Shown here piece after piece: positions 12,218 to 28,896 of a stretch of 64,000 bases of DNA. This DNA is from Catellatospora vulcania (GTDB lineage: Bacteria; Actinomycetota; Actinomycetes; Mycobacteriales; Micromonosporaceae), in assembly GCF_009720385.1 (NCBI RefSeq), contig NZ_WARX01000001.1, positions 1,054,001 to 1,118,000 of the forward strand, read 5' to 3'. How positions within the stretch are numbered: position 1 is the first letter of the stretch; each line of letters opens with the position of its first letter. The notes under the pieces were generated by a model. It was given only the letters and a program-made list of their open reading frames with translations. It did not search any database and was not told the origin of the DNA. A program made the translations under genes and the position numbers.

Positions 12218-12223
12218 GGGGCC

Positions 12224-13905: not shown

Positions 13906-14020
13906 CACCCACAGACCGCACGGCCGAGCGTTTACGCCGAACTCGGGGAGAGCGCGCTCGTCGGCGTGCCCGACCGTGCCCGCAAGAAGGCACCTCCCAC
14001 GGACCACGGGGGCAGAAAGA

Positions 14021-14055
14021 CCCCGGCGCGCCGCCTCTCACGCGGCGCGCCGGGG
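14021..14055. terminator. Hairpin terminator after the ABC transporter operon
   Basis: Fourteen-bp perfect arms (14021-14034 and 14042-14055) enclose a 7-base loop. It is followed directly by the leader of the GH16 gene. Confidence 0.75.
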
Positions 14056-14096
14056 CTGCCCACCACCGTAGTCCGCCACCCCGAAAGGAGAGAACA

Positions 14097-15320
14097 GTGT
14101 CCCTCCGACGTCCCATCGTCGCCGCAGTGGGCGCGACTGTGACGGCGCTCGCCGCCGGCACGCTGGTCGCGCTGACCGCGGGCACCACCGCGGTCGCCTC
14201 GGCGGCTGTCTGCAACGCCCTGTTCGACGACTTCAGCTACAGCGGCCCGGCCGACCCGCTGATCAACCAGCGCGGCTGGTCGGTGCGCACCAACTCCGGC
14301 GGCCCCGGCATCCCGGGCGCCTCCTGGCCGGCGTCCAACGTCTCGTTCCCGACCGTGGACGGCGCCAAGTCCCTGCAACTGCAGGCGTCCACCGACGGCA
14401 CGTCCGGCGGCACCAGCCAGGCGGAGTTCCTGCACCAGCAGAAGTTCTTCGAGGGCACGTACGCCTCGCGGGTCAAGTTCACCGACGCGCCGGTCACCGG
14501 CAACGACGGCGACCACCTGGTGGAGACGTTCTTCACCATCACCCCGCTGGCCGCCCCGATGGACCCCAACTACGGCGAGATCGACTTCGAGTACCTGCCG
14601 AACGGCGGCTGGGGCGAGCCGTCGAACATCATGTACGAGACCACGTGGGAGACCTACCGCCCCGACCCGTGGGAGGCCGTCAACGCCCACGGCGAGCAGC
14701 GGCAGTCCTACGCGGGCTGGCACGACCTGGTGTTCACGGTCTCGGCCGGGCACGTGAAGTACTACATCGACGGGACGTTGGTCGCCGACCACAGCGGCAT
14801 CTACTACCCCGAGACGAACATGTCGATCAACTTCAACCTGTGGTTCATCGACTCGGCCGCGCACACCGGCGGCCTGGCGACGTACCGCCAGCAGGTCGAC
14901 TACCTGCTGTACACGCAGAACGAGGTGCTCACCCCGGCGCAGGCCAACGCCCGCGTCGCGTCGTACCGGGCGCAGGGGGTCAGCCACACCGACAGCGTCG
15001 GGGCCGGCGGCACCTGCCCGACCGCGTCGCCGAGCACCGGCCCGAGCACCCCGCCGTCGTCCTCGCCGTCGCCGCGGCCGAGCGCGTCCCCGTCGCCGTC
15101 GGCCCCGCCGACCGGCGGCACGGGCTGCGTCAACGCGCCGCTGTGGAACATCAGCGGCGTCTACACGACCGGCAACCAGGTCAAGTGGGAGCGCAGCGCC
15201 AATGGCAACCCCGGCGGCCCGAAGTCCGGCGACGGCGTGCACCTGTGGCGCGCCCGCTGGTGGACGCAGGGCAGCGAACCCGGCTGGACCCAGCAGTGGG
15301 AGGACCTGGGCCGCTGCTGA
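14097..15320 (+). CDS. Secreted GH16 glycosidase with CBM5/12
   Basis: A 407-residue exported protein. GTG 14097 follows GAAAGGAG. The signal peptide ends near VASAAVC. The GH16 jelly-roll (about 38-285) carries the catalytic signature GEIDFEYL, with Glu161 as nucleophile, Asp163 and Glu165 as acid/base; this is the ExDxE form without the extra residue. A Pro/Ser linker follows, and the last 60 residues form a CBM5/12 module (APLWNISGVYTTGNQVKW, HLWRARWWTQGSEPG) with the aromatic residues used for chitin or cellulose binding. Its place between a chitobiose-type transporter and a GlcNAc kinase suggests action on a chitin-associated polymer, perhaps mixed fungal wall glucan. The substrate is not certain. 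Confidence 0.85.
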   Translation: MSLRRPIVAAVGATVTALAAGTLVALTAGTTAVASAAVCNALFDDFSYSGPADPLINQRGWSVRTNSGGPGIPGASWPASNVSFPTVDGAKSLQLQASTDGTSGGTSQAEFLHQQKFFEGTYASRVKFTDAPVTGNDGDHLVETFFTITPLAAPMDPNYGEIDFEYLPNGGWGEPSNIMYETTWETYRPDPWEAVNAHGEQRQSYAGWHDLVFTVSAGHVKYYIDGTLVADHSGIYYPETNMSINFNLWFIDSAAHTGGLATYRQQVDYLLYTQNEVLTPAQANARVASYRAQGVSHTDSVGAGGTCPTASPSTGPSTPPSSSPSPRPSASPSPSAPPTGGTGCVNAPLWNISGVYTTGNQVKWERSANGNPGGPKSGDGVHLWRARWWTQGSEPGWTQQWEDLGRC

Positions 15321-15365
15321 GGCAGCACTGTCCAGGTTCGTTCTGAAGTGAAAGGATCAGCGCCC

Positions 15366-16283
15366 GTGACACTCGTCCTCGGCCTCGACGTCGGCGGCAC
15401 CTCGTCGCGGGCGCTGATAACCACCCTCGACGGCGTCCACGCCGGCTTCGGCCGCGCTGGCGCCGGCAACCCGGTGTCCGTGCCGCTCGCCGACGCCGCG
15501 ACCGAGGTCGCGGCCGCCGTGCGGGCGGCACTGTCCGGTCTGGACCCGCGTGCGGTGCGCGCGGCCGTGATGGGCATCGCCGGGACCGGCCGGTTCGCCG
15601 ATCCGGTGGTGGCCGCCGCCTACGCGGAGGCCTTCGCCGGGCTCGGGTTGACCGTGCCGGTGCGGCCGGTCGGCGACGTCGAGGTCGCTTACGCGGCAGG
15701 CACGCTGGAGCCGTGCGGCACCGTGCTCATCTCGGGAACCGGGGCCATCGCCGCCCGCATCGAGGACGGGCTGATGACCGCCAGCGCCGACGGCATCGGT
15801 TGGCTGCTCGGCGACCTGGGTTCCGGCTTCTGGCTGGGCCGGGAGGCCGCCGCGCTGACGGCGCGTGAGCTGTACACCCGTGTCCCGGAAGGCAGGCTGG
15901 CCCGCAGTGTCGCCGTGACGGTGCTCGGCGCGGTGCCCGCGGTGCCCTCCCGCCAGGCCGCCGACGACCTGATCGGCGCGCTGCACGCCGAGCCGCCACG
16001 CCACCTGTCCCGCCTGGCGCCGTTGGTCACCGAAGCCGCCGAACACGGCGACCCGCAGGCGCTGGCGCTCGTCGACCGGGCGGCCGTGCACCTCGCCGAC
16101 TGCCTCGCCGAAGTCCACACCGACGGCCCGGTCGTGCTCGCCGGCAGCGTCCTGACGACCTCCGCGCCCGTACGCACCGCAGTGATCCAACTGCTGGCAA
16201 CCCGATTTTCGGGCACGCCCACCATCGTCGCCGAACCAGGCGAAGCCGGTGCAGCCCGCCTCGCCGCCCGCGCTCTGGCCTGA
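15366..16283 (+). CDS. N-acetylglucosamine kinase of the BadF/BadG/BcrA/BcrD family
   Basis: A 305-residue cytosolic sugar kinase of the ASKHA fold. The phosphate-1 motif is LGLDVGGTSSRALITT (about 4-19), phosphate-2 is LISGTGAIAA, and the signature GWLLGDLGSGFWLGREA matches GlcNAc/glucosamine kinases. It would phosphorylate the amino sugar brought in by the NgcEFG-like transporter. GTG 15366 is preferred over GTG 15348 because AAAGGA lies 9 bases upstream. It is the last gene of the locus before the low-GC island. Confidence 0.85.
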   Translation: MTLVLGLDVGGTSSRALITTLDGVHAGFGRAGAGNPVSVPLADAATEVAAAVRAALSGLDPRAVRAAVMGIAGTGRFADPVVAAAYAEAFAGLGLTVPVRPVGDVEVAYAAGTLEPCGTVLISGTGAIAARIEDGLMTASADGIGWLLGDLGSGFWLGREAAALTARELYTRVPEGRLARSVAVTVLGAVPAVPSRQAADDLIGALHAEPPRHLSRLAPLVTEAAEHGDPQALALVDRAAVHLADCLAEVHTDGPVVLAGSVLTTSAPVRTAVIQLLATRFSGTPTIVAEPGEAGAARLAARALA

Positions 16284-17136
16284 CATGAACGATCAGACTT
16301 CATCCGTTGGCCACCACAGCCCTGGGATGCGCACAAGTCCGGCACTGAGGCCTCACCGGTAGACCATGCGGGGAAATCAGTAGGGCAGTCAACCTGGTGC
16401 CACTCCAGCCCACGCGGCACATCCTTAACTGCCGCCAGGCCTGGCGGAGGTTCTCACGGCGGCATTGGCGTGCAATGGGAGTCGCCGCAACACGAGAGGT
16501 CGAGTCGCTTTCGGCATCCAAGGATCATCAGGGGGCCGCGATGTTCTGTCTTGCAGGCACCCTGCTCACTGGAGATCCGGCCATGCCGTATTAGTTCAGA
16601 AACCGACTTGAGCTGTCCGTACCAGATCCATATCAACTACCGATATACGAGCCACTTATACTGGCTACCTCGCAACGTGGCTAGCTGCTTTGTGAGACGT
16701 CGAGCTTCCTGCCGGCACGTAACCGGGCCCTTCTCCAACTCGTGCCATGGCTCTTGCGCTGGGCTCGCGACCACTACGCCACCACGTCACACCTGACGGA
16801 ATCATGTCCGTTGATCAATTAGCCCCACGAACTTGTGGGGACAGTTGCGCCGCCGGTTCAGCGCCGACAGTCGTCGTCGCTATCGTGTTGTCAATCGCGT
16901 AGTCCTTCGCTTGATCTTATGAGCTGGCTGATGATCAGTGCGCGAGACAGGCTCGGCCTGCCCCTTGGGATTTCTGCCAATTGCTCCTGCATCGTGGTTC
17001 AAAGCTCACGACGTCCAGACGTCCACAGTCGGCACGCTGGTCCTCTTGTAGAAATCGACGTGCGGTGCGATGCTGCTAAACAGCGAACGTCGTCAATATC
17101 ACAAGCAGCTCTATCGGTCGAAGATTGGATGGATCA
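16284..17136. other. 853-bp gene-free, lower-GC left flank of an island
   Basis: No open frame here has the codon bias of the flanking genes. The sequence is visibly richer in A and T than the DNA to its left. The only structure I see is a small hairpin, CCCCAC-N6-GTGGGG, at 16823-16840. I recognise no transposase, integrase or attachment duplication. It probably holds the promoter of the gene at 17137 and decayed DNA. Confidence 0.6.
16823..16840. terminator. Small GC hairpin in gene-free region
   Basis: Perfect 6-bp arms CCCCAC and GTGGGG enclose a 6-base loop. There is no gene directly upstream on either strand, so its function is unclear. Confidence 0.25.
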
Positions 17137-17868
17137 ATGATTGACTCGCTCAAGCTGGAAAACTGGGTGTATTCGGAATTCTTCGACGTACCGACCGATG
17201 TCGAGCTCGACCCAGCCGTCGAGGAGCTCGAGACTTACATCGACGAAATTAGACTTCAAGAGCACCCCTTCTTTTCGAGCGCAATGGCCGATGTAGAGGC
17301 ACTGCGGCTCTGGGTGTCCCAGGAGCTGGTCATGACCAACGCGTTCTCGCAAATAGTCCTGAGTGCAGCGTCAGCAATTCAGAACGTGCATCTGAGAGCA
17401 GTTCTGGCGGAGGTGGCCTATGGTGAACATGGAGCGCTTAAAGGTAGTAAGGCCGCCAAGTCGCATCCATGGCTGTTGAACCAGCTGCGCGACTCGTTGA
17501 ACATCAGTCCAGAAGAGGTCAGGCCGATGCCGCCCACCGTTCGTTTCGTTGAGCGGTTGGTGCATTTTCTGGATGATCCGCTAACCGCCGTCGCCGCGAT
17601 CGGCGTCGGTAACGAGCGGTTGATCATTCCCGAGTACACGGCGGTAAGAAAATGCTTCTCGAACTTGCTGCCGAATGCAGTATTCCAGCCATTCCTTGAT
17701 GCAAACACCACCGAGGACATCGTCCATTCTCGGCTGTGCTACGAGGCTGCATCGAGAATGATCGCCTTGAGCAACGGCAATTCCCGGAAGCTCTACCTCG
17801 AGGCAGGAAAGTCCAGTATCGACAGTCGTGTGAAGTACTTCGACGAACTTGCCGAAATGATTGATTGA
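17137..17868 (+). CDS. Heme-oxygenase-like diiron oxidase/oxygenase (HDO) family protein
   Basis: A 243-residue helical protein of the iron-containing redox enzyme (heme-oxygenase-like) type. Possible metal ligands sit in the expected order: Glu92 and His98 in AEVAYGEHG, Glu160/Glu166 in GVGNERLIIPEY, and Asp194-x2-His197 in EDIVHSRL. Relatives such as UndA, BesC and SznF use a dinuclear iron site to oxidise fatty or amino acids, often in biosynthetic pathways. ATG 17137 has only a weak GGATGGA upstream. Codon use is clearly less GC-rich than in the flanks. Its stop is 7 bp from that of the convergent FAD oxidase. The substrate is unknown; an amino-acid substrate is suggested by that neighbour. 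Confidence 0.7.
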   Translation: MIDSLKLENWVYSEFFDVPTDVELDPAVEELETYIDEIRLQEHPFFSSAMADVEALRLWVSQELVMTNAFSQIVLSAASAIQNVHLRAVLAEVAYGEHGALKGSKAAKSHPWLLNQLRDSLNISPEEVRPMPPTVRFVERLVHFLDDPLTAVAAIGVGNERLIIPEYTAVRKCFSNLLPNAVFQPFLDANTTEDIVHSRLCYEAASRMIALSNGNSRKLYLEAGKSSIDSRVKYFDELAEMID

Positions 17869-17875
17869 CAATCGA

Positions 17876-19009
17876 TCAAAAAAGGCCGGGTCGCTCAGGT
17901 CGCAGGTCATGCAACTCCGCGAACGCGGTGGCAGCGCTTTCCCCTGCGATCGCCGCTGCCAGAGCAGCGGCGATCGCAGGGGCTAATGTGATTCCAAGGC
18001 CACCAAGTCCAAGGGCGACGAGCAAGTTGGGAGAGCCGTAGCAGCCAATGACTGGACGGTTGTCGTACGTGGTAGGACGCCAGGACTTCCACGTGTTCAA
18101 TATCTCGGCCCTGGCTATCTCCGGAACGATGCTTATCGCCGCAGTCATTTTAGTTATTGCTCCGCCGACGGACACGCTGTTGGTATTCTCGTCCATGCCG
18201 TCCTCGTGGAAGTCATAGTTCGTTCCCAGCAACAGTCGACCATCCCGCCTTGGAGTGATAAAACTGTCGCCTCTGTACAGGCAGCGAGAGGCAAGTGGTG
18301 TCGCCGGCATCACCTCAATGAGTTCTCCTCGCACGCGGTGAAGTGGAATCTGAGGCATCCCAGCAACCTCGCAACGACCGTAGCCGGTGCAGAGAACGGC
18401 GGCGTCGAACTCTTCGGCATTATCGGGTAAGGTCACGGTCACGTAGCTATATGAACGACTCGGGTCAACCCTGAGAACTCGACTTGGACACCTAACATTG
18501 ACGCCGAGTAGGTCGAGCGCCTTGATTGATGCCCGCAGGAGCTGCCGGGTGTCGATGCGGGTCTCCTCCATGTAATGGATTGCAGCCGTGGTTTGCGTTG
18601 AAAGGGCGCCTTCAAGCTTTCTGGCGTCATTGCCGTCGAGAAGGGCAACCGGATACCCTGCCTGCCCCAGCTCCAGGAAGCGCGCCTCGGACTTCTCACC
18701 CTCCTCGCCGAGGAAGACCTCAAGAACACCACCTGCGTCGAGGTCAATCGGTAGGCCGGTGGTAACGGTCAACCATTCGACGTGGTCGACGTAGCGCTGC
18801 ACTCCTTGCTCGGCAAGCTTCGTCACTGTCGAAGATGAATTGTGATCAGAATACGGGGTCAAGGCGCCGTTCGCAGCCCAGCTTACGCTTCCCGCCAGCG
18901 AATTTTGCTCGAACAACGTCACATCGCAGCCGGCTTTGCGTAACTCCAAGGCGGTGGACATTCCAATTATCCCGCCACCGACCACAGCGATGCGTCGTGC
19001 AAGACCCAT
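17876..19009 (-). CDS. FAD-dependent oxidoreductase, D-amino acid/glycine oxidase (DadA) family
   Basis: A 377-residue flavoprotein. The N-terminal Rossmann motif IAVVGGGIIGMSTALELRKA binds FAD. The C-terminal part contains SWRPTTYDNRPVIGCYGS and LVALGLGGLGITLAPA, the second FAD-binding segment of the DAO family. Members oxidise the C-N bond of D-amino acids, glycine or sarcosine to imines. The ATG at 19009 has GAGG 8 bases upstream and puts the FAD motif at the usual distance; starts at 19033 or 19039 are possible. It is divergent from the dehydrogenase gene, sharing a gap of about 100 bp, and convergent with the HDO gene. The region encoding AAALAAAIA contains an 18-bp perfect inverted repeat (17941-17982). 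Confidence 0.82.
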   Translation of the reverse strand: MGLARRIAVVGGGIIGMSTALELRKAGCDVTLFEQNSLAGSVSWAANGALTPYSDHNSSSTVTKLAEQGVQRYVDHVEWLTVTTGLPIDLDAGGVLEVFLGEEGEKSEARFLELGQAGYPVALLDGNDARKLEGALSTQTTAAIHYMEETRIDTRQLLRASIKALDLLGVNVRCPSRVLRVDPSRSYSYVTVTLPDNAEEFDAAVLCTGYGRCEVAGMPQIPLHRVRGELIEVMPATPLASRCLYRGDSFITPRRDGRLLLGTNYDFHEDGMDENTNSVSVGGAITKMTAAISIVPEIARAEILNTWKSWRPTTYDNRPVIGCYGSPNLLVALGLGGLGITLAPAIAAALAAAIAGESAATAFAELHDLRPERPGLF

Positions 19010-19112
19010 CTGACTTGCCTCGCTTCTCTCCATGCCCACACGAGGGTAGACATGGTCCCAAGTTGGAGGGTAGTTGCTTTGCTGCTTACGCCGAAGATGT
19101 TACTCTAAACCG

Positions 19113-20129
19113 GTGAGAAGTCTACTTATTACGGGAGCGCCCATTTCTGATCAATGGGCTATGCGCTTCACCGAACTCGGATTCGAGGTCACCAACGGGT
19201 CCACCGAGGCTCTCTTGAAGCTCGGCGTGCCTCATTCGGAAGCTAACCGGGAGATGAATGAATCTGAACTCACCAGGTTTTTGGCTACCGGCGTGGAAGT
19301 GTATGTCTATGGCGGCCTCGAACCTGCTTCCCGGACCGCATTGGCAAGCGCCGCAAAACTGAAGCTTATCGCCTTCCTGGGCACTGGCTGGGCGGATCCT
19401 GGCTGCATCGACTCTGTCGCGTCAGCCGAGAAGGGGATTCTGGTCAGCAATACGCCTCACGCCAATGCCCACTCGGTTGCCGAGTACGCGCTTGGCGCGA
19501 TGATCGGTGCCGCGCGGAACATGTATGCGATGGCTGGCACTGCGGATGGAAAGACCGGCCCGACAGCAGGGTTCGATCTATACGGCAAGAGCCTAGCGAT
19601 CATCGGACTGGGCGCGATCGGATCGCGATTGGCGCGATTTGCCCACAACGGCCTTGGTATGCGAATTCTTTACTTCGGACCAAGCCGGAAGGCCAGCCTG
19701 GAGCAGGAATTAGGAGCGCAACGAGTCACGGACCTTGAGGACCTCTTCGCTCAAGCCGACGTTGTATCGGTGCACGCTTCCTCAACAGCTGACACCAGGG
19801 GCCTCGTCGACGGCACGGTCCTTGCCGCCGTCACGCGACCGATTGTGCTCGTGAACTGCGCCGTCGCCAACATCGTCGACGGACATGCGCTTTACTCCGC
19901 GTTGAGAAATGGCGGAGTTAAGACCGCGGTATTCGATGAGAGTTATCACGACGGCGATCTCACCCGCAAGCTCAGGGGTCTCGGGCCGCTGAAGTACATA
20001 GAATTCCCCCATGCTGCAGGCTCGACGGGAGAGTCCTACGAGCGAATGACATCCATGAGTTTCGACTGCGTGAGTGCCTATGTCAAAGGCGCACCCATAC
20101 CGTACCTGGTTCAGGGGCGCCAGGCCTAG
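19113..20129 (+). CDS. D-isomer 2-hydroxyacid dehydrogenase-like protein lacking key catalytic residues
   Basis: A 338-residue protein with the two-domain fold of NAD-dependent D-2-hydroxyacid dehydrogenases. The dinucleotide motif GLGAIG is at 165-170 and the catalytic His is kept (FPHAAGST, His300). The Arg that binds the substrate carboxylate, normally in a VNTARG segment, is replaced: the text reads VNCAVANIVD with Val251. The Glu after the DVF motif is also absent (FDESY). It may use an atypical substrate or have a non-enzymatic role. GTG 19113 has no SD, but TACTCT lies 7 bases upstream as a -10, so it is probably leaderless; the alternative TTG at 19074 adds an un-family-like Cys/Arg tail. 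Confidence 0.75.
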   Translation: MRSLLITGAPISDQWAMRFTELGFEVTNGSTEALLKLGVPHSEANREMNESELTRFLATGVEVYVYGGLEPASRTALASAAKLKLIAFLGTGWADPGCIDSVASAEKGILVSNTPHANAHSVAEYALGAMIGAARNMYAMAGTADGKTGPTAGFDLYGKSLAIIGLGAIGSRLARFAHNGLGMRILYFGPSRKASLEQELGAQRVTDLEDLFAQADVVSVHASSTADTRGLVDGTVLAAVTRPIVLVNCAVANIVDGHALYSALRNGGVKTAVFDESYHDGDLTRKLRGLGPLKYIEFPHAAGSTGESYERMTSMSFDCVSAYVKGAPIPYLVQGRQA

Positions 20130-20133
20130 GATG

Positions 20134-20176
20134 CTGGCTGGGTTCCAGCTCGTGATGCGAACTGGAACCCAGCCAG
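20134..20176. terminator. Bidirectional terminator between dehydrogenase and NACHT genes
   Basis: Fifteen-bp perfect arms (20134-20148 and 20162-20176) lie between convergent stop codons at 20129 and 20182. Confidence 0.75.
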
Positions 20177-20181
20177 AACGA

Positions 20182-22821
20182 TCAGGGAAGATCCAAGCTG
20201 GAAATCACGACCCGGAAACCTTGGTCCGCGTAGGAGTTGCATGGTGGATCCCAGGACCGAAACCTGATCGATCGAGCCGCCTCGGCTGTGGCCAACCACG
20301 AGCCACCGCGCGTGACGATTTCCCGCATTTCCGTGGCCGCGTGGTCGAGAGGTCGATTCAAGTATTCGTCCGCTGCGGACAATGTCATGTCGAAAACGTT
20401 TCCGATCATGTCACGACAACCGAGATGGGAGTCTACCCAATCAAAGGTTCCAATGGACACCGCTGAAGCGATCCATGGCGTATTTCGCATGTGGCACTTG
20501 GACGGATCCCAGTCAGAGCCCCAGGGATGTACATGATTTTCCGGGCCGGCTGCGAATTCCCATTCTTCCTCGGTTGGCAACCGGCATATCTTGTCGGCCC
20601 CGATCCGACCCGCTACGCGCATGAGGTCTGTCAGCCAGGCGCAATATGCCTTAGCTTCCCATAGATTGACACCGACCACTGGTTGATTCGGCCTGTTGAA
20701 TCGGGGATCGTGCCAGTGAAGAGGCTCTCGTCTCAAAATCAGCTTGCGGATGAATTGGTCTCGCATCGTCTCGTAATCGACGACGCTCATGAATCCGGCT
20801 TGAATGTCTTTACGGTAGTGAAGGCCTAGGGAATCCTGAACGATTGGCATCAGCTGGTCTAGCGTCTTCTCGTCCTGCGCGAGCCACATCTTGGCTTCCG
20901 GCGAATGCCAGTATCGGGTGTTGTCGTATCCCCCTGCCTCGATGAATTTTGCGTATTCGTAGTTCGTTACTGGGTGGATGCCGACATCATAGGACTCTAG
21001 CCTTGTCTCATACGGCGGGTACCAGTGAATCTTTTCGTACTTCGGCTTATCGCCTATCGTGTCGATCGACAGTGACGACCCGATCTTCGCAACGCCACCG
21101 CTTACTGGCACCGTCGGGTAGTCCACAGGCAGACCTGCCAAGAGCGGGTCGCCGATGACTGCTAATGAGTTGCCGGCACGGACGCGATCGGACAGAGGAT
21201 AGGCGCCACTCGATCTCACGGCTGCGAGACTTTTAGCGACCCTCTCGCTGCACCGTATCAACCAGCGTTGCCTGACGGTGGTGGCTGTGTCCTTGATGGC
21301 ACCGAGCAACTCACCTGCCAAAAGCAGATATTGAAGGTCGCTCTCGTCGAGGAGATCCTCGATCAGGACCACCGCTGAATCGATTTCGCCTGTGTATGCG
21401 CACATCTGACCCCAGATCACGAGCTCGGCGCAGTCCTCGCGCGAGGCGATGGTCGTCATGAGCGTTTCTCGGGGCATGTTGGCGAGGTAACCGCCCGCGA
21501 AATACATCCGGAACGCGTCATCGGCGAATCCGAACTCGTTCGGTGCAAGCTCACCGAATAGGCCGACGCCGTCATGGGCCATATTGACGAAGATGACCTC
21601 AGTTGTAGAGGCCATTTTGATCGAGTAGCGATCAGTGCCAGCCAGCACCTGACGGACACAGGCCGCGAGGTCGACTGCAGCAAGTGAGGCCAATGGTGAG
21701 TTTCGCTGACGTTCCCCGGAACTCCAGGCGACCAGCTGCAGCACTGGAAGAAGGATCTCATTTCCAAGGCGCGGTGCATCGGGAGTCAACGAAAGTGTTC
21801 CGGACCGGTTGAACGAATCGCTAAGGCAAACCTTCGTCAGCTCGTAGCAAATCCCACCCAACCCTGGTGGTAGGTGGCCGGTTTGCTCGACAACGAACAT
21901 CGCCAGGGCAAGCATGAGGGGGCGCCTTAGCAGGTTACCCAGCCATGGTTCGGCGCCGATTCGGGCTTTCAGCCGTTCCGCGTACGCTTCATCGATCCTT
22001 CGTGAGTGCTTCTCGAAAACATCGACGAAGTTGGCGACATCGGATAGCGAAAGTGGCTGGAGTGCGAAGCATGTGGTGCTCCGCCGGAGCGGCTCGCAGC
22101 TATCGCTAAACCAGACGTCGTCGCGACTGCCCAGTAGAATCAAGCTCTTGGGGTGTTGTGACTCCACGCGACTGAGGAAACGGGTGAATTTGGCCAGGGC
22201 GCCGCCGAGAGAGTCGAAGTCTAGCTGGTCAATGGCATCAACCAGGACCAGCAAACTGACTCCTGGACGCTTGGTGAGCTCGTCGAGCTCCGAAGCCAGG
22301 ATGGTGTTTTGATCGGCGATCCACGGACTGGCCATTCGTAGAATCGTCATTGGATCACCGCTGACGAGGTCAATTTCTGCGCCGAGCACGGTAACCGCCG
22401 GAAGCCAGATGGGAAGGCGTCCCACACCAGTCTCCAAGAGTGAGCGCGCTTCGCGTATTGCTATCATCTCGAACGCCGTTGATTTGCCGAGCCCGCTCGG
22501 CCCCACAATTGCAACGGTCGAAGTCGCCGGCGCGTCGGTGTCACGCCCACGCAGTAGGCTTTCCAGGGGTACGCCGAGAGCTTCGTTGTCCTCTGGAGGG
22601 ACCCCTGCAGCACTGGCGTCGATTGGTATCAGTCGCCTGTCCAGCCAGCTTTCGCCCAACGGCAACGTCGTATTGACAATGCCTCCTAGGCGTTCTGGGG
22701 GAAAGTTGAGGCGGCCGACTATTTCTCTCAGGTAGCGCTTGGTCTCAAATCCTAGGTTCTCGACTGAAGACCTGGGAGGCACCACTTGTGGAACGACTCT
22801 TTCGACACGCTCAATGCCCAT
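20182..22821 (-). CDS. NACHT-type STAND ATPase fused to an FGE-sulfatase (SUMF1-like) domain
   Basis: An 879-residue protein. Residues 100-310 form a NACHT ATPase: Walker A GPSGLGKST (107-115), Walker B LLVLVDAIDQLD (190-201), and a sensor-like LILLGSRDD (227-235). An all-helical middle part follows (about 310-570). Residues 575-876 are an FGE-sulfatase/C-lectin-like domain: HPVTNYEYAKFIEAGGY, QPVVGVNLWEAKAYCAW, CRLPTEEEWEFAA, GNVFDMT, RGGSW and a final GFRVV. Such domains bind or modify peptides. The start at 22821 has GAGGAG 5 bases upstream. The 2-TM gene ends 14 bp before it, so the pair forms an operon. No membrane segment is seen. STAND-FGE fusions are known in multicellular bacteria as suspected conflict or signalling proteins; this one's trigger is unknown. 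Confidence 0.82.
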   Translation of the reverse strand: MGIERVERVVPQVVPPRSSVENLGFETKRYLREIVGRLNFPPERLGGIVNTTLPLGESWLDRRLIPIDASAAGVPPEDNEALGVPLESLLRGRDTDAPATSTVAIVGPSGLGKSTAFEMIAIREARSLLETGVGRLPIWLPAVTVLGAEIDLVSGDPMTILRMASPWIADQNTILASELDELTKRPGVSLLVLVDAIDQLDFDSLGGALAKFTRFLSRVESQHPKSLILLGSRDDVWFSDSCEPLRRSTTCFALQPLSLSDVANFVDVFEKHSRRIDEAYAERLKARIGAEPWLGNLLRRPLMLALAMFVVEQTGHLPPGLGGICYELTKVCLSDSFNRSGTLSLTPDAPRLGNEILLPVLQLVAWSSGERQRNSPLASLAAVDLAACVRQVLAGTDRYSIKMASTTEVIFVNMAHDGVGLFGELAPNEFGFADDAFRMYFAGGYLANMPRETLMTTIASREDCAELVIWGQMCAYTGEIDSAVVLIEDLLDESDLQYLLLAGELLGAIKDTATTVRQRWLIRCSERVAKSLAAVRSSGAYPLSDRVRAGNSLAVIGDPLLAGLPVDYPTVPVSGGVAKIGSSLSIDTIGDKPKYEKIHWYPPYETRLESYDVGIHPVTNYEYAKFIEAGGYDNTRYWHSPEAKMWLAQDEKTLDQLMPIVQDSLGLHYRKDIQAGFMSVVDYETMRDQFIRKLILRREPLHWHDPRFNRPNQPVVGVNLWEAKAYCAWLTDLMRVAGRIGADKICRLPTEEEWEFAAGPENHVHPWGSDWDPSKCHMRNTPWIASAVSIGTFDWVDSHLGCRDMIGNVFDMTLSAADEYLNRPLDHAATEMREIVTRGGSWLATAEAARSIRFRSWDPPCNSYADQGFRVVISSLDLP

Positions 22822-22835
22822 AGTTACTCCTCGCT

Positions 22836-23510
22836 CTACAGTTCAGTACATGCCTCTGTGTGCGTTTGGACAACAGTGGAGCTATTCAGTACGCCGGATC
22901 CGTCAATGGTCCAGCCCTGGTGTTCGCGATCAGAGAAGTGAAGATCAATTAGATAGGCCTGGGTCGCATCATCGGTGGATATGGGAAGATCAAACAGGTT
23001 GGATTCGGGCAAAAGCACGCCGTGACGGAGGTGGCATGCGTGCCAATCCTCGCCGTTTCCTCCGGTTTGGGGGCGAGCAACCCATCGGTGTACCGGATAC
23101 CTGGTCCCGTTCCTGATCACCAATTGCCAGCGGCGCTGTCCATCTTGCGACCGAACGGGTTCTAGCCAAGCAGCCAGATCGCGAAGTTCGGTCTCTCGCG
23201 CCCTTCTTCTGAGTTTTGCATTGTCCCAAAGAGTTATCGAGACCGCCACTAAGGTTGCCAATGCGGCCGCCCACTCACCGAAATTCCCGGCTTTGTTCGT
23301 GTCTAGATTGCCTCCGAAGAGCGTGAGCCCGAAGGCATCGAGGCCCAGCAGGAAAGCCACCGCCGTGACCAAGATCCATTTTGTGGATCCATGTGCCCAC
23401 GCGCGGCGAGCGGCTCCCCAAAGCATGGTTTTTTTGTCCACGGGTTCTCGCGATCGATCTTGGGTTAAGAATCGGGCAGGTCGATACCGCTCGACCCATT
23501 GACGGTTCAT
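22836..23510 (-). CDS. Two-TM membrane protein partner of the NACHT-FGE protein
   Basis: A 224-residue protein I do not recognise. A basic N-terminal tail of about 45 residues is followed by two hydrophobic segments (about 46-67, WILVTAVAFLLGLDAFGLTL; about 76-95, EWAAALATLVAVSITLW). Then comes a charged stretch, LWDNAKLRRRARETELRDL, and a soluble beta-rich domain of about 120 residues containing RRWQLVIRNGTRYPVHRW. Both termini are predicted cytosolic. It is the first gene of the pair and ends 14 bp before the NACHT-FGE start. The layout of a small membrane protein plus a STAND sensor fits an effector-sensor arrangement, but this is inference. The start at 23510 lacks a good SD. Confidence 0.6.
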   Translation of the reverse strand: MNRQWVERYRPARFLTQDRSREPVDKKTMLWGAARRAWAHGSTKWILVTAVAFLLGLDAFGLTLFGGNLDTNKAGNFGEWAAALATLVAVSITLWDNAKLRRRARETELRDLAAWLEPVRSQDGQRRWQLVIRNGTRYPVHRWVARPQTGGNGEDWHACHLRHGVLLPESNLFDLPISTDDATQAYLIDLHFSDREHQGWTIDGSGVLNSSTVVQTHTEACTEL

Positions 23511-23832
23511 TGTGGCTCAAGACTCTGGCCGGCGCCAGTTGGATGAAGCGGGGTTTCTCGCTGGACCTTTAGTCCTAGCGATACATGCGAGCCGGGTTCA
23601 TGAAAGGCGCCATGTCGCGTTGGAATCGCGATGATCATGCGTTCGTCGTGGTGATGGGCATTGGTGAGACGTCGTTGACATCTGCGAACCCGCGCCGGGA
23701 CTCAGAAGAGGGGTTGCGTTCGGAGTCTCTGTCGAGTGTCGAGTGGCACCCGCAAGGGTGAAACGGTCGCAGTCCACGGCGTCGAGGCCCACCTGAATAT
23801 CCAATTAATGACTTGACGCGATCTTTATTCGA

Positions 23833-23852
23833 AAAAGTGTTTTTGCACTTTT
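23833..23852. terminator. A/T-rich hairpin in island flank
   Basis: Seven-bp arms AAAAGTG (23833-23839) and CACTTTT (23846-23852) enclose a 6-base loop. With no obvious gene upstream its role is uncertain. Confidence 0.3.
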
Positions 23853-23946
23853 GGTGGTTCAATGCCCTAATTCATCCGGCTGTTTCGCCTACGTATCCGT
23901 GACACGGTAGGCGGGGACCGCATGATCAGCGAGTTGTGCACAGTAG

Positions 23947-23976
23947 TTGTGCATGAACTGTTTGCAGAAGTACTGT
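23947..23976 (+). promoter_or_regulatory. Promoter and operator region of the ArsR-type gene
   Basis: TTGTGC (23947-23952), an 18-bp spacer and TACTGT (23971-23976) place a transcription start at about the ATG 23984. The region repeats the word TGTGCA/TGCACA three times (from 23935 on), as expected for a dimeric repressor site. Confidence 0.45.
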
Positions 23977-23983
23977 GCATGTC

Positions 23984-24580
23984 ATGGACGATAAGACCGG
24001 CGCTGCCCCGCACAGCGTCGTACGCCTGAACGCGCTGCAGATCCGTATGCTGGCCCACCCCCTGCGGGCCCGCCTGCTGGGCCTGCTGCGCGTCGACGGG
24101 CCCGCCACCGCGACCACCCTCGCCCGGCTGCTGGACACCAACACCGGCGCGACCAGCTACCACCTGCGCCAGCTCGCCGACGTGGGACTCGTGGCCGAGG
24201 AAGCCGAGCTGGGCACCAGCCGCCAGCGCTTCTGGCGGGCCGCCCACGACGCCAGCACCTGGCTGCCGACCGACTTCGACGACGACCCCGACGCCCGCGC
24301 GGCCGCCGAGTGGATCGAGAGCCAGCAGGTGCAGCTCATGAGCGAGCAGGCCGAGCGGTGGCTGGCGTCACGGCAGCAGGCCCCGCAGGCCTGGCGGGAG
24401 GCCTCGACGATCAGCGACGCGATGCTGACCCTCGCGCCGCAGCGGCTGCGCGAGCTGAACGACGAGATCTGGGCGCTGATCCTCAAATACCGGCAGGACC
24501 CCGCGCTCGCCGCGGAGGAGGACGCCGCCCAGGTCCACATGTTCCTGGTGAACTTCCCGCGGGCGGAGGAGCTGCGATGA
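23984..24580 (+). CDS. ArsR-type winged-helix transcriptional regulator
   Basis: A 198-residue protein with an N-terminal ArsR/HTH_20 winged helix (ALQIRMLAHPLRARLLGLLR, then ATTLARLLDTNTGATSYHLR as recognition helix, about 15-75) and a helical C-terminal half (TSRQRFWRAAHDASTWLPTD onward) of the type found in actinobacterial regulators of drug exporters. No cysteine metal site is visible, so a small-molecule ligand is likelier than a metal. The ATG at 23984 sits 7 bases after a candidate -10, so it is probably leaderless. Its stop overlaps the ATG of the MFS gene (ATGA at 24577), marking a regulator-pump pair. Confidence 0.82.
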   Translation: MDDKTGAAPHSVVRLNALQIRMLAHPLRARLLGLLRVDGPATATTLARLLDTNTGATSYHLRQLADVGLVAEEAELGTSRQRFWRAAHDASTWLPTDFDDDPDARAAAEWIESQQVQLMSEQAERWLASRQQAPQAWREASTISDAMLTLAPQRLRELNDEIWALILKYRQDPALAAEEDAAQVHMFLVNFPRAEELR

Positions 24581-25857
24581 GCGCGCTGACGGTCAAGCAG
24601 GTGCGCCGCCGGTTCCTGCTGCTGCACGGGCTGCGCTGGCTGCCCGCCGGGCTCATCATCCCGGTGCTGATCCTGCTCATGCAGGAGCGCGGCCTGACCC
24701 TGCCGCAGATCGGGCTCGTCGCCACCGCGCAGGGCATCCTCGTGCTCGCCCTGGAACTGCCCACCGGAGGGCTGGCCGACGCGCTCGGCCGCAAACCCGT
24801 GCTGGCGACCGCGTGGGCGGTGAACCTGCTCTCGCTCGGGCTGTTCGTGGTGGCCGATTCGGTCGCGCTGTTCTTCGCCGTCTGGGCGCTGCAGGGCATC
24901 CACCGGGCACTCGACAGCGGCCCGCTGGAGTCCTGGTACGTCGACGCCACCCTGGCCGCCGACCCGGAGGCGAACTACGAATCCGGCCTCGGTTACGCGG
25001 GTACCGTCATCGGCGTGGCGATCTCCGCCGGGGCGCTGCTCAGCGGCGGCCTGATCGCGCTGGGCCCGTTCGGCCCGTTCAGCGCGCTCACCGTGCCGGT
25101 GCTCGCCGCCACGGCGATGCAGGTGGTCGCCCTGATCGTGCTGCTCGGGCTGATGGTCGAGACGCGCCCCGCGCGCGGGGCGGCCGCGCTGCGGGCCTCG
25201 GTGCGGCAGGCGCCCCGGATGATCGGGCAGGCGTTCGGCCTGCTGCGTCGGTCCCGCGTGCTGCTCGCGCTGGTGGCCGTCGAGCTGTTCTGGGGCTTCG
25301 GCATGGTCACCTTCGAGTCGCTGCTGCCGGTCCGGCTCGCCGAGGTCGTCGGCGACGCCGACCGGGCCGCCGCGCTGCTCGGCCCGGCCACGTCGGCGGC
25401 CTGGCTCGTCTCGGCAGCCGGAGCCGCGCTGACCCCGCTGCTGCTGCGCTGGCCCGGGGCCGCACCCGGGGCCGCGCTGCTGCACATTCTGCAGGGCGTG
25501 ACCGTGGTCGGCATGGGACTGTTCGCCGGACCCGTCGGCGTGCTGGTCGCGTTCCTGGCCTGCTACGCCGTGCACGGGGCGGCGAACCCGCTGCACACCG
25601 GGCTGCTGCACCGGCAGGTCGACGGGCCGTACCGGACCAGCGTCATCTCGCTGAACTCGATGATGGGCCAGCCCGCCGGGGCGCTTGGCGGGGTGGTGCT
25701 CACCGCGCTCGCCGCCGCGACGAGCATCAGCACGGCCATGCTGGTCGGCGCGGTCGTACTCGCCGCGGCCGCCCCGCTCTACCTCCCCGCCTGGCGCGCA
25801 GCGCGGCGCAGGCCGGTGCCCGAGTCCGAGGTCGCCGAGTTGGTGCCCACCGGCTGA
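24577..25857 (+). CDS. MFS transporter, probable drug or metabolite exporter
   Basis: A 426-residue inner-membrane protein with 12 hydrophobic segments. The loop 2-3 signature of MFS antiporters is present as GGLADALGRKPVL (about 66-78). The ESWYVDATLAADPEANY loop is typical of the tetracycline/3-phenylpropionate-like MFS branch often paired with ArsR- or PadR-type regulators. The ATG overlaps the regulator's stop by 4 bp, so expression is coupled and probably repressed by it. The substrate is unknown. Confidence 0.82.
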   Translation: MSALTVKQVRRRFLLLHGLRWLPAGLIIPVLILLMQERGLTLPQIGLVATAQGILVLALELPTGGLADALGRKPVLATAWAVNLLSLGLFVVADSVALFFAVWALQGIHRALDSGPLESWYVDATLAADPEANYESGLGYAGTVIGVAISAGALLSGGLIALGPFGPFSALTVPVLAATAMQVVALIVLLGLMVETRPARGAAALRASVRQAPRMIGQAFGLLRRSRVLLALVAVELFWGFGMVTFESLLPVRLAEVVGDADRAAALLGPATSAAWLVSAAGAALTPLLLRWPGAAPGAALLHILQGVTVVGMGLFAGPVGVLVAFLACYAVHGAANPLHTGLLHRQVDGPYRTSVISLNSMMGQPAGALGGVVLTALAAATSISTAMLVGAVVLAAAAPLYLPAWRAARRRPVPESEVAELVPTG

Positions 25858-25874
25858 CGCCGCTCACCGGCAGT

Positions 25875-25896
25875 GCCCCGCCCCCGTGGGCGGGGC
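25875..25896. terminator. Bidirectional terminator
   Basis: GCCCCGCCC and GGGCGGGGC (9-bp perfect arms, 4-base loop) lie between convergent stops at 25857 and 25918. Confidence 0.65.
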
Positions 25897-25917
25897 TCTG
25901 CCGGCGGCTGACGGGGA

Positions 25918-26301
25918 TCACTCCCCGGAGTAGGTGCCGAAACTCCAGATCACGCCCTGCGGGTCGCGGACACTGAAGCCCCGCGAGCCGTAGTCCTCGT
26001 CGCGCAGTCCGCGTAGCACGGTCGCCCCGGCGGCCACCGCCCGCGCGAACAGCGCATCCGGCTGGTCGGTCACCAGGTAGACCAGGCCCTGGTCGGCGGG
26101 GATGTCGTGCACGTTGTCCGGGCGCGGGCTGCCGAGCATGATCCCGCCGCCGGGCGGCCAGCGCAGCTCCGCGTGCGCGACGACCTCGCCTTCGCCGTGC
26201 ACGGCGGTGGCCTTGAAGCCGAACGCCTCCTCCAGGAACGCGATGGCGGCGTGCGCGTCGGTGTAGGTCAGGCAGGGCCAGACCATGGCGTTGTCACTCA
26301 T
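25918..26301 (-). CDS. VOC family (glyoxalase/bleomycin-resistance-like) protein
   Basis: A 127-residue single-polypeptide VOC protein with paired beta-alpha-beta-beta-beta units. The start MVWPCLTYTDAHAAIAFLEEAFGF and the end YGSRGFSVRDPQGVIWSFGTY are typical, with metal-ligand-type positions at His37/Glu41-like residues of the first unit and the DPQGxxW motif in the second. Such proteins bind or convert small hydrophobic molecules. Its ATG overlaps the stop of the AraC-type regulator (26298-26301), so it is the second gene of a two-gene operon. Confidence 0.8.
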   Translation of the reverse strand: MSDNAMVWPCLTYTDAHAAIAFLEEAFGFKATAVHGEGEVVAHAELRWPPGGGIMLGSPRPDNVHDIPADQGLVYLVTDQPDALFARAVAAGATVLRGLRDEDYGSRGFSVRDPQGVIWSFGTYSGE

Positions 26302-27116
26302 ACGTCCAGGGTGGCCGCGTCGGCGTCCTGCAGGCTTGGATTAATGGGAAGTTCCTCCGCCTGCGCCCAGTGCGACGGCGCGACACCCGCGAACTCGCGC
26401 CACTCGCGGGCCAGATGAGCCTGGTCGTAGTACCCGCACCTGGCGGCGATCTCGGCCAGCGCGGGCCGGTGGATGTCGCGCACCAGCCGCGCCGAGCGTC
26501 CGAAGCGGACCAGGCGCAGCGCATCCTTGGGCCCGACACCGAACTCGGCGGCGAACCGCGCACACAGGTGACGGCGGCTCCAGCCGGTCTCGGCGGCGAG
26601 TTCGCCGACCCGCAGCGCGCCGCCCGAGCGCATGATCCGCCGCCAGGCGAAGGACAGCTCCGGTGCGGGCTCCACCGGGTCGAGGCGGCGGGTGAGCGCC
26701 GCGTCGAGCAGGTCGAACCGCTGCCGCCACGACGCCGTACGCAACCGGTCCGTCAGCGGTTCGAGCGACAGCGGCGCGACCGCCGCCGCGAGCGCCGCGG
26801 CCGGCATGCCGAACAGGGCGCGGGCGCCCGCCGGGGTGAGCGCGAGCTGCACCCCGAACTGGGTGCCGTCGTGGTGGATGAACGCGGGAGCCAGGGTCAG
26901 CCCGCTGGCCAGGGCCTGGTAGCCGCTCGGCGGGCGGTCGCCGGTCAGCGCCACCAGGGTCGGCTCCTCGAAACTGATCACCACGGTCAGGTCGGGTGAG
27001 GGCAGGCCGAGGTGCACACCCGGGGCGAACCCGCGGTAGTGGTAGCCGAGGTACTGGCGGACGTAGGGCCGCAGGTGCGGGGCCGGCACGCCGTCCACAT
27101 GCTCCGCGATAGTCAT
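26298..27116 (-). CDS. AraC family transcriptional regulator
   Basis: A 272-residue regulator with an N-terminal ligand domain containing YVRQYLGYHYRGFAPGVHLG and VVISFEEPTLVAL, and a C-terminal AraC double HTH (ALRVGELAAETGWSRRHLCA, then HRPALAEIAARCGYYDQAHL). The DUF6597-like N-domain is common in actinobacterial AraC proteins linked to VOC genes. It is co-transcribed with the VOC gene through an ATGA overlap and divergent from the SulP gene. An autoregulated ligand sensor is likely. Confidence 0.85.
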   Translation of the reverse strand: MTIAEHVDGVPAPHLRPYVRQYLGYHYRGFAPGVHLGLPSPDLTVVISFEEPTLVALTGDRPPSGYQALASGLTLAPAFIHHDGTQFGVQLALTPAGARALFGMPAAALAAAVAPLSLEPLTDRLRTASWRQRFDLLDAALTRRLDPVEPAPELSFAWRRIMRSGGALRVGELAAETGWSRRHLCARFAAEFGVGPKDALRLVRFGRSARLVRDIHRPALAEIAARCGYYDQAHLAREWREFAGVAPSHWAQAEELPINPSLQDADAATLDV

Positions 27117-27228
27117 ACGTCACTCATTCTCCCACGGTGGGCGCAGGTGCGACGCAGGGCGGCCAACCGGGTCAATCGCCTGTTCGGAGGCCATCGCATT
27201 CCTAGGATCTAGGCATGGCGGTGACGGG

Positions 27229-28896
27229 GTGCTGAGCCGGTGGCGGCAATACCGTCCGGAGTGGCTGCGTCCCGACACGATCGCCGGGCTCACCGTGTGG
27301 GCGGTGCTCGTGCCCGAGTGCCTGGCGTACGCCACGATCGCCGGGGTCCCGCCCGTGATCGGGCTCTACGCCGCCGCGCCCGCCCTCGTGCTGTACGCGA
27401 TCTTCGGCAGTTCCCGGCACCTGGTGGTGGGCCCGATGGCCGCCACCGCGGCGCTGTCGGCCAGCGTGGTCGCGGTGTACGCCGGGCCGGGCGAACGCTT
27501 CGTCGCGATGACCACCGCGCTGGCGCTCGTCGTCGGCGTCCTCGCGCTGATCGCCGGGCTGGCCCGGCTGGGCTTCCTGGCGTCGTTCATCTCCGAGCCG
27601 GTGCTCAAGGGGTTCATCGTCGGGCTGGCGCTGACCATCATCGCCGGGCAGCTGCCGAAGCTGTTCGGCGTGCCCAAGGGCGAGGGGAACTTCTTCGCCC
27701 AGCTCTGGCACTTCCTCACCCACCTGGGCCAGACGAACCCGTGGACGCTCGCGATCGGCGCGGTGTGCCTGGCCGTCGTGATCGGGCTCAAGGAGCTCAA
27801 GCCGGTGGTGCCCGGCTCGCTGGTCGCGGTCGCGCTGGGCATCCTCGCGGTCGCCGTGCTGCACCTGGACCGCCGCGGCGTCGCGATCGTCGGGCACATC
27901 GACCCGGGCCTGCCCGCCCTCGGCCTGCCCGGCATCGCCGCCGCCGACTGGCTGAAACTCGTCGGCCCGGCGGTCGGCGTCGCGCTGATCGGGTTCGCCG
28001 AAGGACTGGGGGCTGCGAAGACGTACGCGGCGCGGTTCGGGTACACCGTGGACGCGAACCGGGAGCTGATCGGGCTGGGCACGGCCAACATGGGCGCGGG
28101 CCTGGCCTCGGGCATGGTCGTCAACGGCAGCCTGTCCAAGACCGCGGTCAACGCCGGGGCCGGGGCGCGCAGCCAGCTGTCCGGGCTGGTCGTGGCGGTG
28201 CTCACGGTGGTGACGCTGCTGTTCCTCACCGGGCTGTTCGAGCAGCTGCCGGAGGCGGCGCTGGCCGCGGTCGTGATCGCGGCGCTGGTGGAGCTGGTCG
28301 ACATCCGGGGACTGCGGCGGCTGTGGCGGGTGTCCACCGCGCCGCGCGGCACACCTGCGTCGCTGATCACCCGGCCCGACTTCGTCGCCGCGATCGCCGC
28401 GCTGCTGGGCGTGCTCGTCTTCGACACGCTGCCGGGCCTGGTCATCGGCATGGCGGTCTCGCTGGTCCTGCTCCTGTACCGGGCGTCACGCCCGATCGTC
28501 GCGATGCTGGGGCGCACCGGCGACGGCCGGTGGGTTGACCGGTCCCGGCACGACGACGCGCGACCCGCCCCGGGTGTGGTCGTGCTGCGGCCCGAGGGAG
28601 CCGTCTTCTTCGCCAACGCCGATCACGTCCGCGACCGGGTACGCGCCGCCGCGGCGGCGCCCGGCACGCGGGCGGTGGTGCTCGACGGCGAGAGCGTGCC
28701 GCTGGTCGACGTGACCGCCGCGACGACGCTGTCCGACCTGGTCGACGACCTACGCGGCCAGGGCGTCGAGCTGTACGTCGCGCACGACCTGGGCCAGGTC
28801 CGCGACATCCTGCGCCGCGCCGGCGTCACCCTGCCCCACGTGTACGCCACCATCGATGACGCGGTCCGCGCCGCCACCAGCACCCCCGCGCCCTGA
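27229..28896 (+). CDS. SulP family anion transporter with STAS domain
   Basis: A 555-residue membrane protein. The first third contains the SulP signature region PDTIAGLTVWAVLVPECLAY, followed by LVVGPMAATAALSASVVAV, and about 10-12 membrane segments run to residue 430. A STAS domain occupies the last 110 residues (VVVLRPEGAVFFANADHVRD, then VVLDGESVPLVDVTAATTL); the Ser that is phosphorylated in SpoIIAA-type STAS domains is replaced around the LVDVTA position. The substrate may be sulfate, bicarbonate or dicarboxylate. GTG 27229 is the first start that gives the whole domain. Confidence 0.87.
   Translation: MLSRWRQYRPEWLRPDTIAGLTVWAVLVPECLAYATIAGVPPVIGLYAAAPALVLYAIFGSSRHLVVGPMAATAALSASVVAVYAGPGERFVAMTTALALVVGVLALIAGLARLGFLASFISEPVLKGFIVGLALTIIAGQLPKLFGVPKGEGNFFAQLWHFLTHLGQTNPWTLAIGAVCLAVVIGLKELKPVVPGSLVAVALGILAVAVLHLDRRGVAIVGHIDPGLPALGLPGIAAADWLKLVGPAVGVALIGFAEGLGAAKTYAARFGYTVDANRELIGLGTANMGAGLASGMVVNGSLSKTAVNAGAGARSQLSGLVVAVLTVVTLLFLTGLFEQLPEAALAAVVIAALVELVDIRGLRRLWRVSTAPRGTPASLITRPDFVAAIAALLGVLVFDTLPGLVIGMAVSLVLLLYRASRPIVAMLGRTGDGRWVDRSRHDDARPAPGVVVLRPEGAVFFANADHVRDRVRAAAAAPGTRAVVLDGESVPLVDVTAATTLSDLVDDLRGQGVELYVAHDLGQVRDILRRAGVTLPHVYATIDDAVRAATSTPAP

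Follow-up and report, generated by a model that had tools for sequence, protein, structure and literature searches.

Why should a NACHT ATPase fused to an FGE-sulfatase domain share an acquired island with a small membrane protein and three genes for small-molecule enzymes? The question is raised by a locus within a 64,000-nucleotide stretch of the Catellatospora vulcania genome (contig NZ_WARX01000001.1, positions 1,054,001 to 1,118,000; hereafter, the window). The fusion protein, NACHT-FGE, is of the STAND type, and Avs is a bacterial antiviral STAND system. All five genes of the island arrived in a single insertion event, NACHT-FGE genes recur with genes for amino-acid-type enzymes in other genomes, and the effectors change within clades of the FGE domain. 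With somewhat less than even confidence, we propose that the island encodes an NLR-like conflict system that moved horizontally and has a small-molecule branch of its own, in which the FGE domain reads a compound controlled by the neighbouring enzymes. The features of the locus are as follows:

16285..23946, no strand: inserted low-GC island of 7,662 bp with five genes, delimited by empty sites in relatives and by GC content
16285..17124, no strand: left end of the island, about 840 bp, with two open reading frames (108 and 101 residues) lacking a Pfam match and no recognisable gene
17125..17868, plus strand: HDO, a haem-oxygenase-like protein (PF14518) of 247 residues from a TTG start, or starting at an ATG at 17137
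17876..19039, minus strand: DAO, of the FAD-dependent amino-acid-oxidase family, glycine-oxidase (ThiO) like (PF01266, E = 1.3e-55)
about 19113..20129, plus strand: HADH, D-2-hydroxyacid-dehydrogenase-like, with a GTG start (PF02826, E = 9.3e-31; PF00389, E = 1.5e-13)
20182..22821, minus strand: NACHT-FGE STAND protein of 879 residues, with the P-loop at residues 107-115 and the FGE domain (C-type-lectin fold) at about residues 570-872
22836..23510, minus strand: two-helix membrane protein with a beta-rich tail, 224 residues, with a relative beside NACHT-FGE and HADH in genome G414

An earlier reading of the letters alone (the sequence-only reading) had singled out the last two genes, and they do lie where it placed them, 14 bp apart. 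It had also noted lower GC around the pair, which it took to fit a laterally acquired system. Indeed, GC content is 0.54-0.60 over 16.5-24.0 kb, against 0.72-0.77 on both sides, and most 200-bp steps inside 16285-23946 fall at 0.47-0.62. Acquisition is now supported by an empty site in five (G373, G391, G404, G384 and G407) of the seven same-genus relatives compared, out of ten (G308, G398 and G410 lay outside the comparison). In the five, the match to the window runs up to 16271-16284, is followed by 17-534 bp and resumes from window position 23932-23947. Since the end of the left-flank kinase gene, which is present in 11 of 11 genomes of the genus in our own-genus search, thereby meets the right-flank ArsR-like gene within 17-534 bp, the segment 16285-23946 represents one insertion. 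In the other two relatives, G359 and G341, the ArsR-like/MFS stretch is missing as well. A full NACHT-FGE occurs in one of the 11 genomes of the genus. No tRNA was found in 12000-28000, and the island ends carry no long direct or inverted repeats, the best matches being 11 bases and 10 bases. By contrast with its other claims on the surroundings, the description of the pair's flanks as gene-free was wrong: the same low-GC block holds HDO, DAO and HADH.

The fusion of NACHT to FGE is clear at its C-terminal side (PF03781, E = 4.3e-35), whereas the NACHT domain (PF05729) scores 17.9 bits in the window copy, under the cut-off of 26.7, and is evident in relatives (67.0 bits in G399, 49.9 bits in G414). 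A profile built from five NACHT-FGE members matches the structures of NLRC4 (5.5e-8) and NLRP3 (2e-5), and the Walker A motif, GPSGLGKST, is intact, as in STAND/NACHT P-loop NTPases. The ATPase as a whole had been called intact, which is too strong, because DAIDQ stands in the Walker B stretch in place of the DGLDE shared by the four nearest relatives. The window NACHT also has a long branch (2.62 changes per column), and with these two features ATP hydrolysis by the switch may be slow or absent. No PADLOC model matches the protein better than E = 0.011. The NACHT domain starts near residue 100 with no Pfam domain ahead of it; thus, no N-terminally fused effector was recognised, and the separate two-helix gene stands where the effector of a bNACHT protein would be fused.

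Among solved structures, the sequences closest to the FGE part are those of the sulfoxide/selenoxide synthases EgtB and OvsA. The active site of FGE is a cysteine pair in the stretch after RG[GS]SW, and in none of the five core members do two cysteines follow this motif, so that a catalytic FGE domain is not supported. In EgtB, a DinB-like domain with a metal-binding histidine supplies metal ligands; no DinB domain was detected in the window NACHT-FGE at E<=1 (Pfam), which sets it apart from the EgtB/OvoA type. We also considered a target of a diversity-generating retroelement (DGR). The 3' 299 bp of the gene have, besides themselves, only chance matches of 33 bp and 22 bp in their own genome and therefore show no sign of a template repeat; a DGR target is thus not supported, although a reverse transcriptase was not searched for.

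The association with enzymes extends beyond the window. Each of the nine NACHT-FGE loci counted has an enzyme with a match at another such locus, compared with none of 18 NACHT loci without FGE (26-protein enzyme panel; tblastn, E<=1e-8, query coverage of at least half, flanks of about 7.5 kb to either side; no protein was counted against its own locus). The controls comprise 17 loci from the family of the window genome, one of them in that genome itself, and G646 (L070); 17 of the 18 listed NACHT-only matches were taken, the exception being G404:C49, whose frame contains one TAG. Loci with FGE and no recognised NACHT gave one weak methyltransferase match with a smaller panel that lacked the aldolase, SDR, MNIO and radical SAM proteins. 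A profile of the window protein and a plasmid relative (see below) finds NACHT-FGE in at least 8 of 300 family genomes at E<=1e-25 and, in 396 phylum genomes, the own genome and one NACHT-only match (G646), both counts being lower bounds with two candidates scored per genome. A scan of genome contigs with two short peptide patterns returned 58 stretches containing one distant relative, which was not used.

Four enzyme sets can be defined. Set A (HADH, HDO, DAO) comprises the window, G399 and G414. G399 encodes on one strand an HDO, a methyltransferase, an HADH, a DAO, a DUF4062-NACHT-FGE protein and a second methyltransferase, and its HDO, HADH and DAO are 35%, 35% and 27% identical to those of the window. 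In G414, by our own reading, HADH, two-helix and NACHT-FGE genes make up one compact array, with a thioredoxin-domain gene on one side and purK-like genes on the other. Set B (methyltransferase, aminotransferase, RidA) is represented by a plasmid of Alisedimentitalea scapharcae and by G336. The plasmid encodes a full-length NACHT-FGE, 26% identical to that of the window over the whole length, preceded by a WelO5-like 2-oxoglutarate oxygenase, a methyltransferase, an aminotransferase, a DAO, RidA and an unassigned protein, and the locus adjoins annotated cytosine methyltransferase and MvaI/BcnI restriction genes. In G336, a caspase-NACHT-FGE gene is accompanied by genes for a methyltransferase, a fatty-acid-desaturase-like protein, RidA and an aminotransferase. 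Thus, beyond the shared set, one locus adds the DAO and the oxygenase and the other the desaturase. Between the two, the methyltransferases are 42%, the RidA proteins 53%, the aminotransferases 37% and the NACHT-FGE proteins 43% identical, a sharing that appears to span phyla. Set C (aldolase) consists of G357, where NACHT-FGE carries a TIR domain, and G236; their DeoC-type aldolases, encoded adjacent to NACHT-FGE or three genes away, are 43% identical (loci L037 6525-11663 and L061 4942-10546), and each has an SDR-family gene nearby, the two SDRs showing no mutual match at threshold. Finally, in set D (MNIO, radical SAM), G347 and G436 have CHAT-NACHT-FGE flanked by an MbnB/TglH/ChrH-type gene (MNIO plus DUF2063) and a radical SAM gene.

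Some of these loci call for a side remark. On the A. scapharcae plasmid, a 292-residue protein without a Pfam match, racemase-like by eye only, lies between RidA and NACHT-FGE (L036 15311-16189). In G336, genes of the toxin-type AbiEii and Gp49 families (L057 3710-4384 and 6360-6731) lie a few kb from caspase-NACHT-FGE. The set D loci (L062 6276-12627 and L063 4946-11803) have the appearance of a module like those for ribosomally synthesized and post-translationally modified peptides, tied to an NLR-like gene.

In trees of the FGE domain from the nine loci, support is 100/99 for A+B, 99/100 for B, 85/88 for C and 100/99 for D, and the enzyme sets follow FGE clades B, C and D. The effectors do not: they differ inside A (two-helix gene, DUF4062), inside B (transmembrane segment by sequence reading, caspase) and inside C (TIR, unassigned), and are the same within D. 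In B, C and D the kind of enzyme tracks the FGE clade, unlike the killing domain, and the five core members lack the FGE active site; for these reasons we suggest that the FGE domain reads a compound under the control of the enzymes. NACHT-FGE would then be a receptor resembling animal and plant immune receptors, with an FGE domain that lost its active site and came to serve as a ligand pocket of C-type-lectin fold, and with NACHT as the switch that assembles the receptor. HDO, DAO and HADH would make, trim or deplete the compound, and a phage or other non-self insult that shifts it would trip the receptor, so that the cell kills or arrests itself. The receptor might be activated either by the product or by its loss. 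The restriction-modification genes on the plasmid and the AbiEii and Gp49 families in the G336 locus suit a role in defence.

The two-helix protein would be the membrane effector or anchor of such a system, which other members carry in fused form as a transmembrane segment, caspase, DUF4062, TIR or CHAT. Its gene is found in both loci whose NACHT-FGE has no N-terminal extension and in none of the seven others, suggesting that it replaces the fused effector. As the sequence-only reading had it, the protein matches no known family (Pfam and PADLOC give nothing at E<=1, NCBIfam a single row at chance level, E = 0.11), and the proposed layout of two transmembrane helices followed by a beta-rich tail agrees with a structure model of low confidence (mean pLDDT 47.8), whose quality was too poor for a fold search. 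A SLATT domain was not matched by Pfam at E<=1, a threshold that a divergent member could escape. By that reading, homologues recurring beside STAND genes would support a two-component system. One further such case is G414, whereas in G186 a relative has no NACHT match within the 18 kb examined around it; the family is therefore wider than STAND systems. Among 298 same-order genomes there is one match besides the own, and among plasmids none at E<=0.01 (tblastn). Overall, the idea of a conflict-type STAND module on acquired DNA fits the relatives with caspase, DUF4062, TIR and CHAT N-termini, the empty site and the independent pair in G414, but the module had been drawn too small, because three enzyme genes entered with the pair and recur beside NACHT-FGE elsewhere.

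These three enzymes belong to families acting on amino acids, 2-oxo acids or 2-hydroxy acids. HDO falls in PF14518 (35.5 bits, cut-off 28.9). The best of five AlphaFold models has a pLDDT of 77.5 (the other four 67.0, 51.4, 49.5 and 36.0), and its predicted fold is shared with haem-oxygenase-like diiron enzymes, the Foldseek matches being led by CADD (1.2e-6) and followed by HrmI, TenA, BesC and PolF. However, identity is just 9-19% over the matches listed, and TenA, which is not a diiron oxygenase, matches nearly as well; no PDB sequence matched a two-member HDO profile at E<=1. Residues E67, E101, H102, E164, D198 and H201 are invariant across the three members available, and the D-x2-H of the last helix presumably fits the haem-oxygenase-like diiron pattern. 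DAO reaches 193 bits against TIGR02352, below its cut-off of 250.8, which places it at the level of the PF01266 family rather than among ThiO equivalogs; its best match among solved structures is the glycine oxidase 6j38 (9.6e-23), and it keeps the Arg-Pro motif that aligns with glycine oxidases. Arg and His are the active-site residues of D-2-hydroxyacid dehydrogenases. In alignments, HADH of the window keeps the His and has Val in place of the Arg, whereas the G414 and G399 copies keep both; owing to this replacement, the window protein may bind rather than turn over its substrate.

Several observations weigh against the proposal of an enzyme-controlled ligand. The panel of enzymes came from the very loci being compared, which makes the 9:0 contrast post hoc. 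Two further NACHT-FGE loci stand outside the nine and were run with the smaller panel: the Herpetosiphon locus (L056) has no match, and the G408 locus (L060), cut by a contig end, has no such enzyme on its visible side. The two MNIO loci are not very independent, their enzymes being 64-73% identical. Clade A, to which the window belongs, does not resolve in the FGE tree, and HADH is the only enzyme common to all three set A loci, G414 having neither HDO nor DAO nearby. The window and plasmid DAOs are just 22% identical. No complete pathway can be written for the set A enzymes, and without its active-site Arg the window HADH may not be an active dehydrogenase. Moreover, the window NACHT is divergent in sequence, with Q replacing E in the Walker B region.

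Four other explanations have to be weighed. In the first, which we regard as unlikely, biosynthesis is primary: each island would be a small cluster for a natural product, and NACHT-FGE a STAND-type regulator or self-recognition device that sets the timing or kills cells without the product. The WelO5-like oxygenase, methyltransferase, aminotransferase and RidA of set B and the MbnB/TglH/ChrH-type and radical SAM proteins of set D would suit it, and peptide-processing modules near STAND ATPases have been described (PMC7159879). Yet the five genes of the window island include no recognisable carrier, synthetase or dedicated exporter, and the N-terminal domains of the relatives are of death type (caspase, DUF4062, TIR, CHAT) rather than DNA-binding.

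Alternatively, the enzymes could be the attack itself: once NACHT-FGE fires, HDO, DAO and HADH would turn a common amino acid into something toxic or into peroxide, or drain it, halting phage or cell growth. Glycine-oxidase-like enzymes, which DAO resembles, yield H2O2, and the fold relatives of HDO include BesC, PolF and HrmI, which make unusual amino acids. Nevertheless, six of the nine NACHT-FGE proteins carry N-terminal effector regions (transmembrane, caspase, DUF4062, TIR or CHAT) and two have the two-helix gene, so that no further effector is needed, and the enzymes of set D are of a kind that modifies peptides rather than draining amino acids. We consider this explanation rather improbable.

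It is less probable still that one mobile island carries the enzymes and NACHT-FGE as passengers that have nothing to do with each other. Arrival by a single insertion, the alternating direction of the island genes and the apparently inactive HADH of the window are compatible with ordinary cargo, but similar enzymes accompany NACHT-FGE elsewhere, both in further genomes and in a second phylum, and do so in compact arrays that share one direction. Finally, despite its nearness to EgtB and OvsA, an FGE domain acting as an enzymatic step of oxygenase or formylglycine type, to which NACHT couples ATP, is highly improbable, as none of the five core members has the cysteine pair and no DinB domain was detected in the window protein at E<=1 (Pfam).

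Returning to the metabolite-linked receptor, a possible though doubtful generalisation is a class of metabolite-gated bacterial NLRs, in which each receptor fits what the enzymes encoded beside it produce, whereas killing domains are swapped freely. In such a class, sets A and B would yield products derived from amino acids, set C an aldolase-derived product and set D a modified peptide. If so, an NLR would read a danger or self compound produced by the cell itself, an alarm comparable to the cyclic-nucleotide kind except that its signal would be an ordinary metabolite or a peptide one, and ordinary small metabolites and modified peptides would join the alarm molecules of bacterial immunity. 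Furthermore, if the enzymes controlling the ligand move together with each receptor, expression of a few genes combined with metabolomics could reveal what the ligand is.

Parts of this architecture have precedents; the comparisons below refer to the sections of the cited papers available to us. Antiviral STAND/bNACHT proteins (PMC12169576) share the central NACHT, a C-terminal sensor, an effector at or near the N-terminus and residence on mobile DNA, whereas in the window the putative effector is a separate two-helix gene, the sensor is of FGE/C-type-lectin (CLec) kind and dedicated enzyme genes lie alongside. DGR-diversified STAND-CLec/FGE proteins, described as putative antigen sensors (PMC10907252), likewise combine NACHT with a C-terminal FGE-type CLec domain, in some cases with peptidase or TIR effectors; the window protein differs in showing no sign of a template repeat, and small-molecule enzymes are not mentioned for the DGR sensors in those sections. 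According to the same source, STAND-linked CLec domains have had no experimental characterisation to date. VMAP ternary and GAP1 systems (PMC7159879) share the FGS domain, two-transmembrane effectors (SLATT in their case) and biosynthetic peptide-modifying genes in conflict systems. In the window, by contrast, neither MoxR nor vWA was found in the five genes of the island, the partner is without a SLATT match (Pfam), and the enzymes by family act on amino-acid-type substrates. The Swarozyc DUF4062 NADase (PMC13174449) shares its DUF4062 with the N-terminus of the G399 relative; the window has no DUF4062, and NACHT-FGE and the enzyme set are additional. Thus, the literature describes both STAND-FGE/CLec sensors (PMC10907252) and peptide-processing modules near STANDs (PMC7159879), and no report coupling an amino-acid enzyme or aldolase to NACHT-FGE was found in a search that left out subscription journals and most preprints.

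The HDO subfamily is rare: a profile search finds it in three of 300 family genomes (the window's, G399 and G308), two of the three copies lying beside NACHT-FGE, and no plasmid match appears at E<=1e-3. The third copy, in G308 of the same genus, is about 42% identical to the window HDO and sits in a lower-GC patch beside an unassigned protein with an N-terminal membrane span (L069 10693-11451 and 11473-12360, both on the minus strand), with a transposase-like fragment nearby by our own reading. It is possibly another HDO-linked conflict pair.

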